Below are positions 79 through 39,891 of a stretch of 64,000 nt of DNA, in pieces; the stretch's first letter is position 1, and the number at the start of each line of letters is the position of its first letter. This DNA is from Halobaculum magnesiiphilum (GTDB taxonomy: Archaea; Halobacteriota; Halobacteria; Halobacteriales; Haloferacaceae), in the NCBI RefSeq assembly GCF_019823105.1, contig NZ_CP081959.1, positions 1 through 64,000 of the forward strand. The letters are read 5' to 3'. Position numbers and translations under genes: made by a program. The notes under the pieces were generated by a model, which ran no database searches, had not been told where the DNA came from, and saw only the letters and a program-made list of their open reading frames with translations.

Positions 79-403
79 CAGATTACGTATAATTCGTAAT
101 TTACGAAATCTACGAAATAGACGTCTGACACAGATTTATGTGTAATCTCCGTGAATTACGAGATATGCCACCACTGATGTGGAGCGGAAAACGAAGGAAG
201 AGCCCGTTAGTCTCGCAAGAAAGACCTATTCAATTCAGAAGCCGTGATCGTAATGTGCGCAAATTACGTCTAATTCGCGATGGTCGTGATTCTCGTGACT
301 TTCGTCAATTTCGTACAATGCGTGATTTACGCAATTTGCAGAGCTACCACACAATACGGAATATACGTAAATCACGGAATGCACGGACTATGTGTACCCC
401 ACG
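79..403. repeat. Degenerate 9-bp tandem array upstream of parA (putative centromere/parS)
   Basis: Two blocks (79-123 plus 143-160, then 242-403) are made of 9-bp units ending in CG, consensus about TAATTTACG. CG falls at 86, 95, 104, 113 and 122, then at 150 and 159, then every 9 bp from 249 to 330 and again at 357, 366, 375, 384 and 402; the gaps hold CA or TG in the same phase. The periodicity also produces a spurious 101-codon reading frame rich in LRxxR, which I do not call a gene. Position directly before a ParA gene suggests a centromere or autoregulatory site. The first 78 bases hold nothing I recognise. Confidence 0.7.
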
Positions 404-432
404 AGCTAGCACATCAATCAACGGTGATCGAG

Positions 433-1242
433 ATGGCGAATAGGCTCACAGTTGCGATGCAGAAGGGGGGCGTTGGGAAATCAACCACCACAATCAACGT
501 CTGTGGAGCGCTCGCATACGCAGAAGCGCTCGCCGATGAGAACGATGTCCTGCTCGTCGACGCTGATCCACAGGGGTTCGCCACAATCACACTCGGGTTC
601 CGAGATTATTACGTGAGCGGTGACGCCGTCTCGTTGTACGACCTCATGCTCGATTTCGAGCGGTTTAGTGAGGTTAATGACATTATACAGTCACACGAGG
701 AGTTCGATGTCCTTCCTGCTCACGGGAGTAATTTCAAGCTCGAACGTGAACTCTGGTCGGCAAACCGGTCGCTCGAACGACTCGATATGATCCTTGATGA
801 GGTCGAAAGCGATTACGATTACATGCTAATCGATTCACCACCGAATCTTGGACCACTCGCCGACGGAGCACTTCTCGCGGCAGAAAACGTTCTCTTTGTC
901 TCGCGAGCGGATTCGATCGCAACCTTCTCAATGAATCTCCTCACCCAGGAGATTACCCAGCTCGAACGAGAATTCCAGCGCGATATCGGCATCGTCGGCG
1001 CTGTCGTGAACGCAGTGACGAGAAACAAAATCAGCGATGACCGCCTCGACTGGTTTTTGGATAACCTCGGCGAAGAGAACGTCTTCATCGTCCCAGAGAC
1101 CGTCGCCATCGAAGGGGCGTTCAACCAAGGACATTCAGTATACGAATTCGAGCCATCGAACCGCCACCGCAATCAGAAGGCCGAGGAAGTACGGGAGATC
1201 TACGACCGTCTCGCCGATCACGTGGAGGGACACTATGCCTGA
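433..1242 (+). CDS. parA: ParA/Soj-family partition ATPase
   Basis: Protein of 269 residues beginning MANRLTVAMQKGGVGKST. The deviant Walker A motif KGGVGKST lies at residues 11-18, followed by the family motifs LLVDADPQG and LIDSPPNLGPL. ParA ATPases bind DNA non-specifically and move plasmid copies apart with a centromere-binding partner. I chose ATG 433 because a Shine-Dalgarno-like GGTGATC ends 3 nt upstream and because the deviant Walker motif normally lies close to the N-terminus; an upstream in-frame extension to 280 runs through the 9-bp array. The stop overlaps the next gene, so the pair is an operon. Partition of this replicon is the likely role. Confidence 0.9.
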   Translation: MANRLTVAMQKGGVGKSTTTINVCGALAYAEALADENDVLLVDADPQGFATITLGFRDYYVSGDAVSLYDLMLDFERFSEVNDIIQSHEEFDVLPAHGSNFKLERELWSANRSLERLDMILDEVESDYDYMLIDSPPNLGPLADGALLAAENVLFVSRADSIATFSMNLLTQEITQLEREFQRDIGIVGAVVNAVTRNKISDDRLDWFLDNLGEENVFIVPETVAIEGAFNQGHSVYEFEPSNRHRNQKAEEVREIYDRLADHVEGHYA

Positions 1243-1705
1243 AGAGGACGACGACGCCCTTGGACAGATGCTCGGGGATCGAATCAAGGGGACCAAGGGT
1301 GACACAGCGGATGAAGAGCGAGACACAGAGGATCTCAGCAATGAGGTTGAAACGGAATCTGCCTCGGGTAGTGATACCAGCGGAGCATCGTCCCCAGACA
1401 ATGCGGAATCTACGCAAATTACGCAATCTACAGAAGAGTCTTCTGAGGATGACGAAACTGGGAACGGGACAGAGTCAGAGACGGAAGAAGGCACCGTCCG
1501 GTCTCGCTCCCCGTTCCCGCTGTACGTGACTCCCGACTTGAAAGAGACTGTGCAGAATCGCTTCGAGAAGTTCAATGCTCAGCGGACACTGAACGATGAG
1601 GCTCAAGTCGAGAAACACAAGCACTTCATGGAGGGCTTGTTACGCGCTGGACTCGATCATCCTGAACTAGAAGAGTACGTCCTTGACGAATTCAAAGACG
1701 ACTGA
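1235..1705 (+). CDS. Probable ParA partner / centromere-binding protein
   Basis: Acidic 156-residue protein starting at an ATG inside the end of parA (8-nt overlap), so translation is coupled. Residues 1-20 form a short N-terminal segment, residues about 25-95 are a low-complexity Glu/Ser/Asp/Thr linker, and residues about 95-156 form a predicted helical domain beginning RSPFPLYVTPDLKE. By position it should be the DNA-binding adaptor of ParA; the C-terminal domain could be ribbon-helix-helix-like, but I cannot confirm the fold. Unusually, its own coding sequence contains four 9-bp units of the upstream array (1397-1432), which encode part of the linker. Confidence 0.65.
   Translation: MPEEDDDALGQMLGDRIKGTKGDTADEERDTEDLSNEVETESASGSDTSGASSPDNAESTQITQSTEESSEDDETGNGTESETEEGTVRSRSPFPLYVTPDLKETVQNRFEKFNAQRTLNDEAQVEKHKHFMEGLLRAGLDHPELEEYVLDEFKDD
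1397..1432. repeat. In-gene copy of the 9-bp array
   Basis: Four phased units with CG at 1404, 1413 and 1422 and CA at 1431. The unit CAAATTACG at 1415-1423 is identical to the one at 260-268. It lies inside the partner gene, so a protein that binds the upstream array could bind here as well. Confidence 0.65.
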
Positions 1706-3808: not shown

Positions 3809-4771
3809 TCATTGTACCTCGGAACCAGTTCGAAAGCTCGTGAGTTCGTCGATTCGATCTTCCAAGTCTTCGATCTCGCTGCGGAGGACATCTGCCTCCT
3901 CGCTTTCAGTGGCCGCGAGTCGGTCCTTCAATCCCTGCAATCGCGTCTCTTTCACGTCCTCGTTGACGTCGGCTTTCCTGACGTACGCCCGCTCGTCGAT
4001 ATCGTAAACGTCCTGCTCGTGGAGGTCAGTCACGTCAAGTGCGTCTTCGACCTTGTCCGGGTCGACGCCGAGGACACGATCCTGATCGATACCGGCGTCC
4101 TCCAACGCAGCGAGGACCTCTGTGTCGTCCTTCAGTGACTTCGACCGGCGCGAAGTTCGTTGGACGGAGCCGTACTGGGCATGAACTGGCTGGTCGTGAT
4201 GGACTCGATCAAGGAGGGTATCGGCGATGTCTTTCCGAAGGTTGTTCGCGCCACGTTGCACGTCCGAGAGTAGCGTGTAAAGATCGATGAGTGTCTCCGT
4301 ATCCAGGGTGTCCATGCTGGTCGGATCGTGGCGTTCTAATTCATCGATCAACAGGAGTGCATCAGCATAGACGCCGACATCCGGCTCAGTTCTATCGTCA
4401 GTCTCGGTAGGGGCCTCACCAATCACCTGGGTGGCAGTCGGGGCGTCCGTTTCAACGAGAATCCCAGCGTCTTCGTCAATCTCGAATTGCGGATGAAGCG
4501 TTAGCACGGCAGCATAGGGTTCGGCATCCGGGGGAAGCCGGTCAAGCTCAAAGCCGCCGCCCGCATCCTGGACTCGGCGATAGAGCGTTTCGAACTGGTC
4601 GCGCTGGAGCGGCTGAGATTCATCCGAGTCCAGAATTTCGATGATGACGCGGTATTCCTGTGTGTCGGTAATACGAAACTGGGTGTGAGAAAGCGGTGTG
4701 ATGAGAGTGGCCTCCGGAGAACGCTCCTCGGCCGCTTCGAGGAGCGTGTGCCAGTTCTCACTGAACGACAT
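3809..4771 (-). CDS. Hypothetical acidic protein
   Basis: 320 residues, family not recognised. The N-terminal half (residues 1-100) looks like a small alpha/beta domain (TPLSHTQFRITDTQEYRVII, FELDRLPPDAEPYAAVLTL). The middle (about 135-205) is helical (ALLLIDELERHDPTSMD ...). The C-terminus (about 280-315) is predicted coiled coil (RLQGLKDRLAATESEEADVL). No membrane segments or catalytic motif are visible. It converges on the 3072 gene across 68 nt and stands alone on its strand. Base composition matches the neighbours. Confidence 0.7.
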   Translation of the reverse strand: MSFSENWHTLLEAAEERSPEATLITPLSHTQFRITDTQEYRVIIEILDSDESQPLQRDQFETLYRRVQDAGGGFELDRLPPDAEPYAAVLTLHPQFEIDEDAGILVETDAPTATQVIGEAPTETDDRTEPDVGVYADALLLIDELERHDPTSMDTLDTETLIDLYTLLSDVQRGANNLRKDIADTLLDRVHHDQPVHAQYGSVQRTSRRSKSLKDDTEVLAALEDAGIDQDRVLGVDPDKVEDALDVTDLHEQDVYDIDERAYVRKADVNEDVKETRLQGLKDRLAATESEEADVLRSEIEDLEDRIDELTSFRTGSEVQ

Positions 4772-38457: not shown

Positions 38458-39891
38458 CTAGTTCAGGAACCCGTTCATTTTCGATTTCGCGATAGAGCGC
38501 ATCATCTCTTCTTCTTGTTCCAGGTTAGCAAAACGATCGTCCTCTAGGATTCGTTCCATAATCGACTCAGGGTCTTCAGCGAGGTCGAAGTGCATGTGGA
38601 TACCTTTTCCCCGTCCTCGGCCACGACGGTCGAACTCAAGGATGCCATAGGTCGCCTGTTCAGTAACATGGTTCACGAAGGTTTCTCGGCCATAGGAATC
38701 AGCTCCGAGAGTGTCACAGACGAACTGGTAGAGGCTGTAGGAGGGTCCGGCCGGAATCCAGTCCACACTGGCATTTGAGTAGTGGTCTGTCGCAGCAACG
38801 GCGAAGATACAGAGCTTCTTTTGCGTCGAGAGTCCACCGATATGCCGTAATTTCCGATCGGAGTCATATCGGTCCTGGGCAGTCCGGACGTGTGATTCTT
38901 CGACACGCTCGTCTCCCTGTTTATCGGCTAATTCCCCGGACCACCGAAGCAGATCGATAGCCTTCCGTGCATCACCGTGCGTCTGAGATCCGAACGCGGC
39001 GACGAGTGGGACGACGTCATCCGCGAGCGCCTCAGGCTTGAAGGCGTCTTCACGATTGCGGAGGATATGTCGAAGCTGCGTTGCGTCGTAATCCTCGAAG
39101 AAGATCTCGTCTGGATTGAATGAACTATTCGCGCGACTATTGAGATCAGACATGAAATCGACGTAGTTGGTTATCGCAGTGACGGAAACGGGGCCATCAA
39201 ACCGGCCGAGGTCTCGAGCCCGCGAGAGTTGGTAGAGGAGTGAATTATATTCTGGTTCCGAGTATGGGCCGTCGAGCATGTCGACCTCGTCTAAGACGAA
39301 AATTACGCCGTCATAGTGTTCGCGCATGATTTCCCACAGGCGCTCGAGTTTCTGGTCTGTCGAGACCCCACTCTCGGGAACTCCCGGTTCTTCATCGATA
39401 TTTGCCGTCGCTTCTTGAATGAGACGATAGACTGCACGACTGGTCGTACCTGGGCCCTCGCAGTTTATTGAAAACACACCGAACCGCATTCCCTGAGCCT
39501 CACTCAGCTCGACGATTTTCTTACAGACAGCATGGATAATCAGGGATTTCCCCGTTCCAGACGGCCCAGTCAGCAACATCTCCGGAATGCCGTGGTTCTG
39601 GAGAGCGGGTTTGAGATTTGTGATGACGGTCTTCAACTGCTCATCGCGACCAACGATCCGATCTTCGTCGATTATCGTATCCGGACGAACCAAATCCTTG
39701 TTTTCGAAGACAGTCTCAACAGATTCAGATTGGAGCTCGTCCATAATCGAGATCCCGCTACCAGAATCGTCGAGCGTAGTTTGACTGCTGGTAGACTCCT
39801 CGGAGTTACTCTCTCCGTGCTCTCCGGGAACCTCCGTTATAGATTCAGACTGTTCCGTCTGGTTATCTGTAACCGGCGATTCATCACCCAT
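38458..39891 (-). CDS. orc1: Orc1/Cdc6 replication initiator
   Basis: 477 residues. After an acidic Ser/Glu-rich N-terminus comes the AAA+ domain: VGRDEQLKTVITNLKPALQN, Walker A GPSGTGKS at about 109-116, Walker B VIFVLDEVDML near 210, and HGDARKAIDLLRWSGELAD as sensor 2 region. A C-terminal winged helix follows (TQKKLCIFAVAATDHY ... ETFVNHVTEQATYGILEFDR). It binds origin repeats and loads the helicase. ATG 39891 follows TTTATAGTA about 25-30 nt upstream, as for leaderless genes. ORB-like repeats flank it on both sides, so it probably controls the adjacent origin. Confidence 0.93.
   Translation of the reverse strand: MGDESPVTDNQTEQSESITEVPGEHGESNSEESTSSQTTLDDSGSGISIMDELQSESVETVFENKDLVRPDTIIDEDRIVGRDEQLKTVITNLKPALQNHGIPEMLLTGPSGTGKSLIIHAVCKKIVELSEAQGMRFGVFSINCEGPGTTSRAVYRLIQEATANIDEEPGVPESGVSTDQKLERLWEIMREHYDGVIFVLDEVDMLDGPYSEPEYNSLLYQLSRARDLGRFDGPVSVTAITNYVDFMSDLNSRANSSFNPDEIFFEDYDATQLRHILRNREDAFKPEALADDVVPLVAAFGSQTHGDARKAIDLLRWSGELADKQGDERVEESHVRTAQDRYDSDRKLRHIGGLSTQKKLCIFAVAATDHYSNASVDWIPAGPSYSLYQFVCDTLGADSYGRETFVNHVTEQATYGILEFDRRGRGRGKGIHMHFDLAEDPESIMERILEDDRFANLEQEEEMMRSIAKSKMNGFLN

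Follow-up and report, generated by a model that had tools for sequence, protein, structure and literature searches.

Tandem centromeres bound by small partner proteins are already known, as are target sites located within the gene of the protein that binds them, the latter from the replication initiators lambda O and P1 repL. In the delta/omega system of pSM19035, a short ParA is combined with a small ribbon-helix-helix (RHH) ParB, and the parS sites, each of 7-10 contiguous repeats, overlap promoters; one dimer binds each tandem short site, and activation of ParA needs at least four contiguous units (PMC9499535). The ParF/ParG/parH system of TP228 employs a small partner whose N-terminal tail is flexible and whose C-terminal domain binds DNA; this partner coats a degenerate array serving as the centromere and binds the operator as well (PMC7308502). 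The archaeal SegAB system pairs a ParA orthologue with a site-specific RHH protein encoded downstream, and the sites of SegB are often intragenic (PMC12284271, PMC5120986). The StbA/stbDRs system of R388 contains 9-bp direct repeats around the promoter of the stability operon (PMC3098194). Lambda O and P1 repL carry their own target repeats or origin inside the coding sequence, i.e., ori-lambda, which consists of four 19-bp iterons, and oriL, whose in-gene location is supported by synonymous changes (PMC3985674, PMC9948254).

The locus described here lies at the start of the window, which covers the initial 64 kb of the 271,515-bp contig C2 of Halobaculum magnesiiphilum. It resembles these systems in several of the features named above while departing from each of them in others. 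The omega unit is a fixed, non-palindromic 7-bp sequence, WATCACW, with sites in promoters only (PMC9499535), whereas the family to which the window locus belongs has a 9-bp period, a unit that varies between loci, and a matched copy in the partner coding sequence; no lag-7 signal was found in 100 loci, and tandem WATCACW was not above chance and was absent from the window locus. In contrast to the phased arrays reported below, TP228 displays tetramer boxes with AT-rich spacers and no fixed 9-bp phase, and that account describes no in-gene array (PMC7308502). SegB recognizes a 13-bp palindrome, TCTAGASTCTAGA, which is dispersed across the chromosome and forms no tandem array (PMC12284271, PMC5120986); matches to this motif with up to 3 mismatches were not enriched (5 versus 13.5 expected), and none occurred at 1-1705. 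The R388 sites are two sets of five 9-bp repeats with 2-bp spacing, thus a period of 11, and have one fixed unit (PMC3098194), a pitch that was not detected among the 100 loci (mean z of 0.17 at lag 11). Lambda O and P1 repL are replication initiators and not parts of a partition system, and no second matched array is located there 5' of a motor gene.

The probable partition locus and its phased arrays

The parA gene (433..1242, forward strand) encodes a 269-aa Walker ATPase (AAA_31/ParA; Pfam AAA_31, 3.7e-32) with its P-loop near residue 10 and without an N-terminal extension ahead of it; Soj structures match the product at 1.8e-19, and a relative in S. japonicum is annotated as a ParA family protein. 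The first 8 bp of the partner gene (1235..1705, forward strand, 156 aa) are shared with the 3' end of parA. Three features of Type Ib-like ParABS systems are found together, namely a short ParA-family Walker ATPase lacking the N-terminal DNA-binding extension, a small partner gene directly 3' of parA in the same operon, and repeated sites 5' of the operon. Judged from the sequence, this is probably a haloarchaeal plasmid partition locus composed of ParA and a small putative centromere-binding partner. The related S. japonicum plasmid (135 kb) begins at the first par locus.

The array 5' of parA is arranged in blocks on the forward strand. Block 1 (79..123) consists of five 9-bp units, CAGATTACG TATAATTCG TAATTTACG AAATCTACG AAATAGACG, with CG in one register at 86, 95, 104, 113, and 122. 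Two extra units, TAATCTCCG TGAATTACG (143..160), carry CG at 150 and 159 in the register of block 2, which is offset by 1 bp from that of block 1 (28 bp instead of 27). Block 2a (242..340) comprises eleven contiguous 9-bp units, ten of which end in CG (every 9 bp at 249-330, 10 consecutive), and block 2b (350..403; units at 350-385 and 395-403) continues this register, with CG at 357, 366, 375, 384, and 402. Between the last unit and the start of parA lie 29 bp. A preliminary description had CG recurring exactly every 9 bp through 79-160 and 242-403; the period itself stands, but the first run ends at 122, a 1-bp slip precedes 143-160, and three units of block 2 (332-340, 341-349, and 386-394) have no CG. 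The autocorrelation that had been proposed as a check placed the period far above background, since 18 CG pairs at lag 9 were counted in 60-432, where 2.45 +/- 1.43 were expected and 0/5000 dinucleotide shuffles reached the observed number. The phased upstream array is thus confirmed. Strict palindromy of the unit was considered and dropped, because the correlation (0.92) was borderline against the 95% permutation limit (0.917), and the unit can be called weakly palindromic at most.

Within the partner gene, four units, GACAATGCG GAATCTACG CAAATTACG CAATCTACA (1397..1432, forward strand), are positioned in frame and encode linker residues 55-66, DNAESTQITQST. Since 9 bp equal three codons, the array keeps DNA phase and reading frame together. 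The unit CAAATTACG occurs letter for letter at 260-268 and at 1415-1423, just as the preliminary description had noted; its four-unit CG block holds as a block, but CG is found at 1404, 1413, and 1422 only, and the fourth unit ends in CA. The CG pairs taken by themselves are a weak signal in the gene, as there are 2 such pairs and 78/5000 shuffles reached this number. A weight matrix was built from 22 upstream units only and scanned as four tandem units on both strands of contig C2, to which all replicon-wide scans refer. The top score was that of block 1 (79..123, 38.3 bits), block 2a scored 34.7 bits at 296, and the in-gene block at 1397 reached 28.9 bits, compared with a background maximum of 19.9 bits over 538,960 positions outside the first 2 kb. 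None of 5000 synonymous permutations of the partner gene reached 28.9 bits, nor did any of 5000 recodings by parA codon usage or 5000 codon-order shuffles, which bears out the earlier proposal that the array of this haloarchaeal plasmid ParA locus is copied inside the partner gene. The matrix scan revealed no other comparable array of the window unit on the 271,515-bp replicon, over which the largest CG count in one mod-9 phase also falls at the window locus.

In an unsupervised scan, the four strongest lag-9 windows of the replicon were located at the window locus (one) and at a second ParA-partner locus outside the window (three; C2:150575-152230, reverse strand), which has its own 9-bp arrays and a partner gene at C2:150575-150991. 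Here, AACTAAACG units lie upstream, and the linker TETTESTTTNKTNETNETNETK is written by AACGAAACG units; the two loci thus have the 9-bp period in common and unlike units (TAATTTACG and AACTAAACG, respectively), each with its own matching in-gene copy. Close relatives of the second locus in many genera show the same matched design. Loci of this type (L150-L160, L179-L209) occur in many haloarchaeal genera with C-terminal domains that are 84-100% identical, a pattern suggestive of the recent spread of a single plasmid backbone. Contig C2 also carries two Orc1/Cdc6 genes (window 38554-38841 and C2:157233-157511, both on the reverse strand), and with two such genes along with two par loci, the contig may have arisen as a cointegrate from two replicons.

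Matched arrays across haloarchaeal loci

The main set comprised 100 loci, forming 30 clusters at 70% identity of the C-terminal domain, and was picked by protein similarity and not by arrays. The 9-bp period was present in these homologous loci as well, in answer to the other check that had been proposed: over the 30 clusters, the upstream autocorrelation gave a mean z of 3.55, 2.72, and 2.00 at lags 9, 18, and 27, with all other lags below 0.7, and the linker coding sequence gave 3.19, 3.04, and 2.68 at the same lags. This comb was absent from parA and from the downstream sequence of the 100 loci, which displayed ordinary codon periodicity alone. Eight of the 30 clusters had an upstream lag-9 z of 2 or less and no clear array.

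The linker matched the upstream array of its own locus better than the arrays of other clusters (p=1e-5), and this fit exceeded the fit to its own downstream flank (2e-5) and to its own parA (2e-4). In 27 of the 30 clusters, the linker surpassed its own synonymous permutations in matching the upstream array (p=1.7e-5). The orientation of the match was forward in 27 cases, reverse in 20, and tied in 18, and in 78 of 81 loci linker GC3 was lower than parA GC3. Another 38 loci (12 clusters), many of them closely related to the main set, served as a hold-out and mostly agreed with it: the comb was repeated (lag-9 values of 2.7 upstream and 3.4 in the linker), and the own match exceeded the cross match in 10 of the 12 clusters (p=0.008), while Fisher combination gave the own match a p of 0.08, and the comparison with the own parA likewise had a p of 0.08, with few clusters. 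These comparisons add to the preliminary description that an in-gene copy is a general feature of the family and is sited in the code of the disordered linker; the arrays are phased, their unit changes between clusters with the two copies remaining matched, and the linker code is under constraint at the DNA level.

The units differ widely in sequence, e.g., GGATWATCC in Haloarcula, GTATAACCC in Haloplanus, and GTATTACCC in Haladaptatus. The linkers of Haladaptatus and Halarchaeum (TGDTGSTGD) are encoded by tandem 9-mers resembling ACGGGTGAT, which in Haladaptatus correspond to the upstream unit read in reverse complement (ACGGGTAAT). At locus L143, ACTGAAACG in the upstream array is paired with ACCGAAACG in the linker, and units resembling AAGACATCA occupy both positions at L104. 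One partner subfamily located beside ParA (L163-L167, NIREDWDSATIYVEPEQSED) lacks the 9-bp array in both places, and this array-less group offers a contrast that is useful for asking what the array does.

Relatives of the partner C-terminal domain were found in haloarchaeal plasmids, and with a wider profile the family was recovered from 197 of 391 haloarchaeal genomes, covering 63 of 86 genera; in a sample across the phylum, all credible matches fell in one order, that of the haloarchaea. Family members usually adjoin ParA, and in most loci the partner gene directly follows parA. At one locus (L162), two tandem partner-like genes occur (matches at G024:C13:3334-3525 and 3815-4009). Members on chromosome-sized contigs of 2.2-3.6 Mb (L069, L078, L085, L086) extend the system beyond small plasmids. 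ParA-partner pairs were also observed on IMG/VR contigs of 37-52 kb (L146-L149), which may be plasmid-like viruses or plasmids; searches of viral contigs with family alignments A1, A6, and A7 returned none, and alignment A5 returned four, A4 being too diverse to serve as a query.

The partner protein and the proposed function of the array

The partner consists of an N-terminal tail, an acidic disordered linker, and a C-terminal domain from a haloarchaeal protein family that carries no name. The conserved domain (1493..1702, forward strand) is predicted from family alignments A1 and A4 to contain an extended strand followed by two helices, and a confident AlphaFold2 monomer of a relative from a viral contig (pLDDT 85.7) shows an extended stretch followed by helices at 20-41, 47-60, and 65-69. 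This pattern suits an RHH dimer, and the domain is probably a DNA-binding dimer domain of RHH-like build, which we do not class as RHH. The partner had no above-chance match in Pfam, NCBIfam, or PDB, and searches of Pfam, NCBIfam, and PHROGs gave no RHH link for the C-terminal domain. Foldseek comparisons (two models against PDB, one against BFVD) matched no known RHH protein, and neither HMM searches of PDB with family alignments A4 and A5 nor profile comparison with omega and CopG returned anything usable.

We consider it quite likely that the partner binds a tandem operator/centromere ahead of parA and a second, in-frame cluster of sites in the code of its own linker. The 9-bp array would then be the tandem binding site of the partner, with one C-terminal-domain dimer per unit by analogy with omega on its heptads (PMC9499535). 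From geometry, a 9-bp step spans approximately 309 degrees of B-DNA, so each dimer would be rotated by roughly -50 degrees relative to its neighbour, which would give a coat winding slowly, in a left-handed sense, round the helix, in line with the winding put forward in the preliminary description. Once coated, the clusters upstream and in the gene, which are about 1 kb apart, may merge into one partition complex that stimulates ParA via the N-terminal tails of the partner, as in ParG (PMC7308502), and the operon would be repressed when the upstream block is occupied. The in-gene cluster would supply extra binding sites, such that the gene carries its own centromere, and the linker may have received the array because it is disordered and tolerant and because 9 bp equal three codons. 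The preliminary description also suggested that the in-gene copy could help to control the partner gene. Counting against the tandem-site reading are the negative fold and profile searches for a known RHH relative, the eight clusters with no clear upstream array, the array-less subfamily, the weaker hold-out values, and the weak palindromy of the unit.

Other explanations must be weighed against this tandem-site reading. A three-residue protein repeat (TSETSE, TGDTGS), selected for an acidic linker and unrelated to the upstream DNA, could produce a period in the gene, and the amino-acid sequence of the linker is itself periodic at 3 and at 6 residues (z of 2.57 and 2.33); moreover, acidic disordered linkers are abundant in haloarchaeal proteins. 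However, the linker DNA matches its own non-coding upstream array and beats its synonymous permutations in 27/30 clusters, and in the window gene 0/5000 such permutations attain the observed matrix score, which renders this explanation very unlikely. Rather unlikely, too, is the proposal that the array is an autoregulatory operator only, with the in-gene block acting as a downstream operator or transcription roadblock and the partition site lying elsewhere. Autoregulation is common among RHH partners such as ParG (PMC7308502), and the upstream block, which stops 29 bp before the parA start, spans the likely promoter region; yet some 20 upstream units exceed the needs of an operator and resemble multi-repeat centromeres (PMC9499535), and the replicon holds no other comparable array of the window unit.

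The array might alternatively represent replication iterons for an initiator (Orc1/Cdc6 or RepH-like), the copies in the partner gene being incidental. Short tandem repeats are the usual form of iterons, the Haladaptatus locus has an orc1/cdc6 gene next to it, and lambda O binds iterons within its own gene (PMC3985674); nevertheless, the array travels with parA and the partner and not with orc1/cdc6, which on C2 is approximately 37 kb and 6 kb away from the two par loci, and the in-gene copies sit in the partner gene, so that we regard an iteron function as highly improbable. Degeneracy of the units is evident, and a share of the shuffles equalled the CG pairs of the in-gene block, as might be expected of chance or local low complexity, but the shuffles, replicon scans, multi-locus comb, permutation tests, and hold-out together exclude this account, and its probability is negligible.

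The partitioning of haloarchaeal plasmids and secondary chromosomes is hardly described in the papers searched, and none of these, on haloarchaeal partition sites or on in-gene centromeres, reported an array whose unit varies while its copies at the promoter and in the partner linker stay matched. In about half of the sampled haloarchaeal genomes, the family supplies a candidate for the partner protein, and wherever the array is present, a candidate centromere can be read from the sequence. The arrangement also constitutes an unusual double coding, in which a phased, putative protein-binding array and a disordered linker share a 9-bp period that suits both, and the many lineages, whose units differ while their copies match, form a natural set for working out a recognition code. 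On balance, it seems probable from these comparisons that a large part of the haloarchaea carries the centromere of a ParA system within the very gene whose product binds it and that linker residues are largely set by the DNA sites. As the unit changes between lineages while the upstream and in-gene copies stay matched, the binding specificity and both site clusters would evolve together, and the gene would represent a self-contained module of protein plus centromere.
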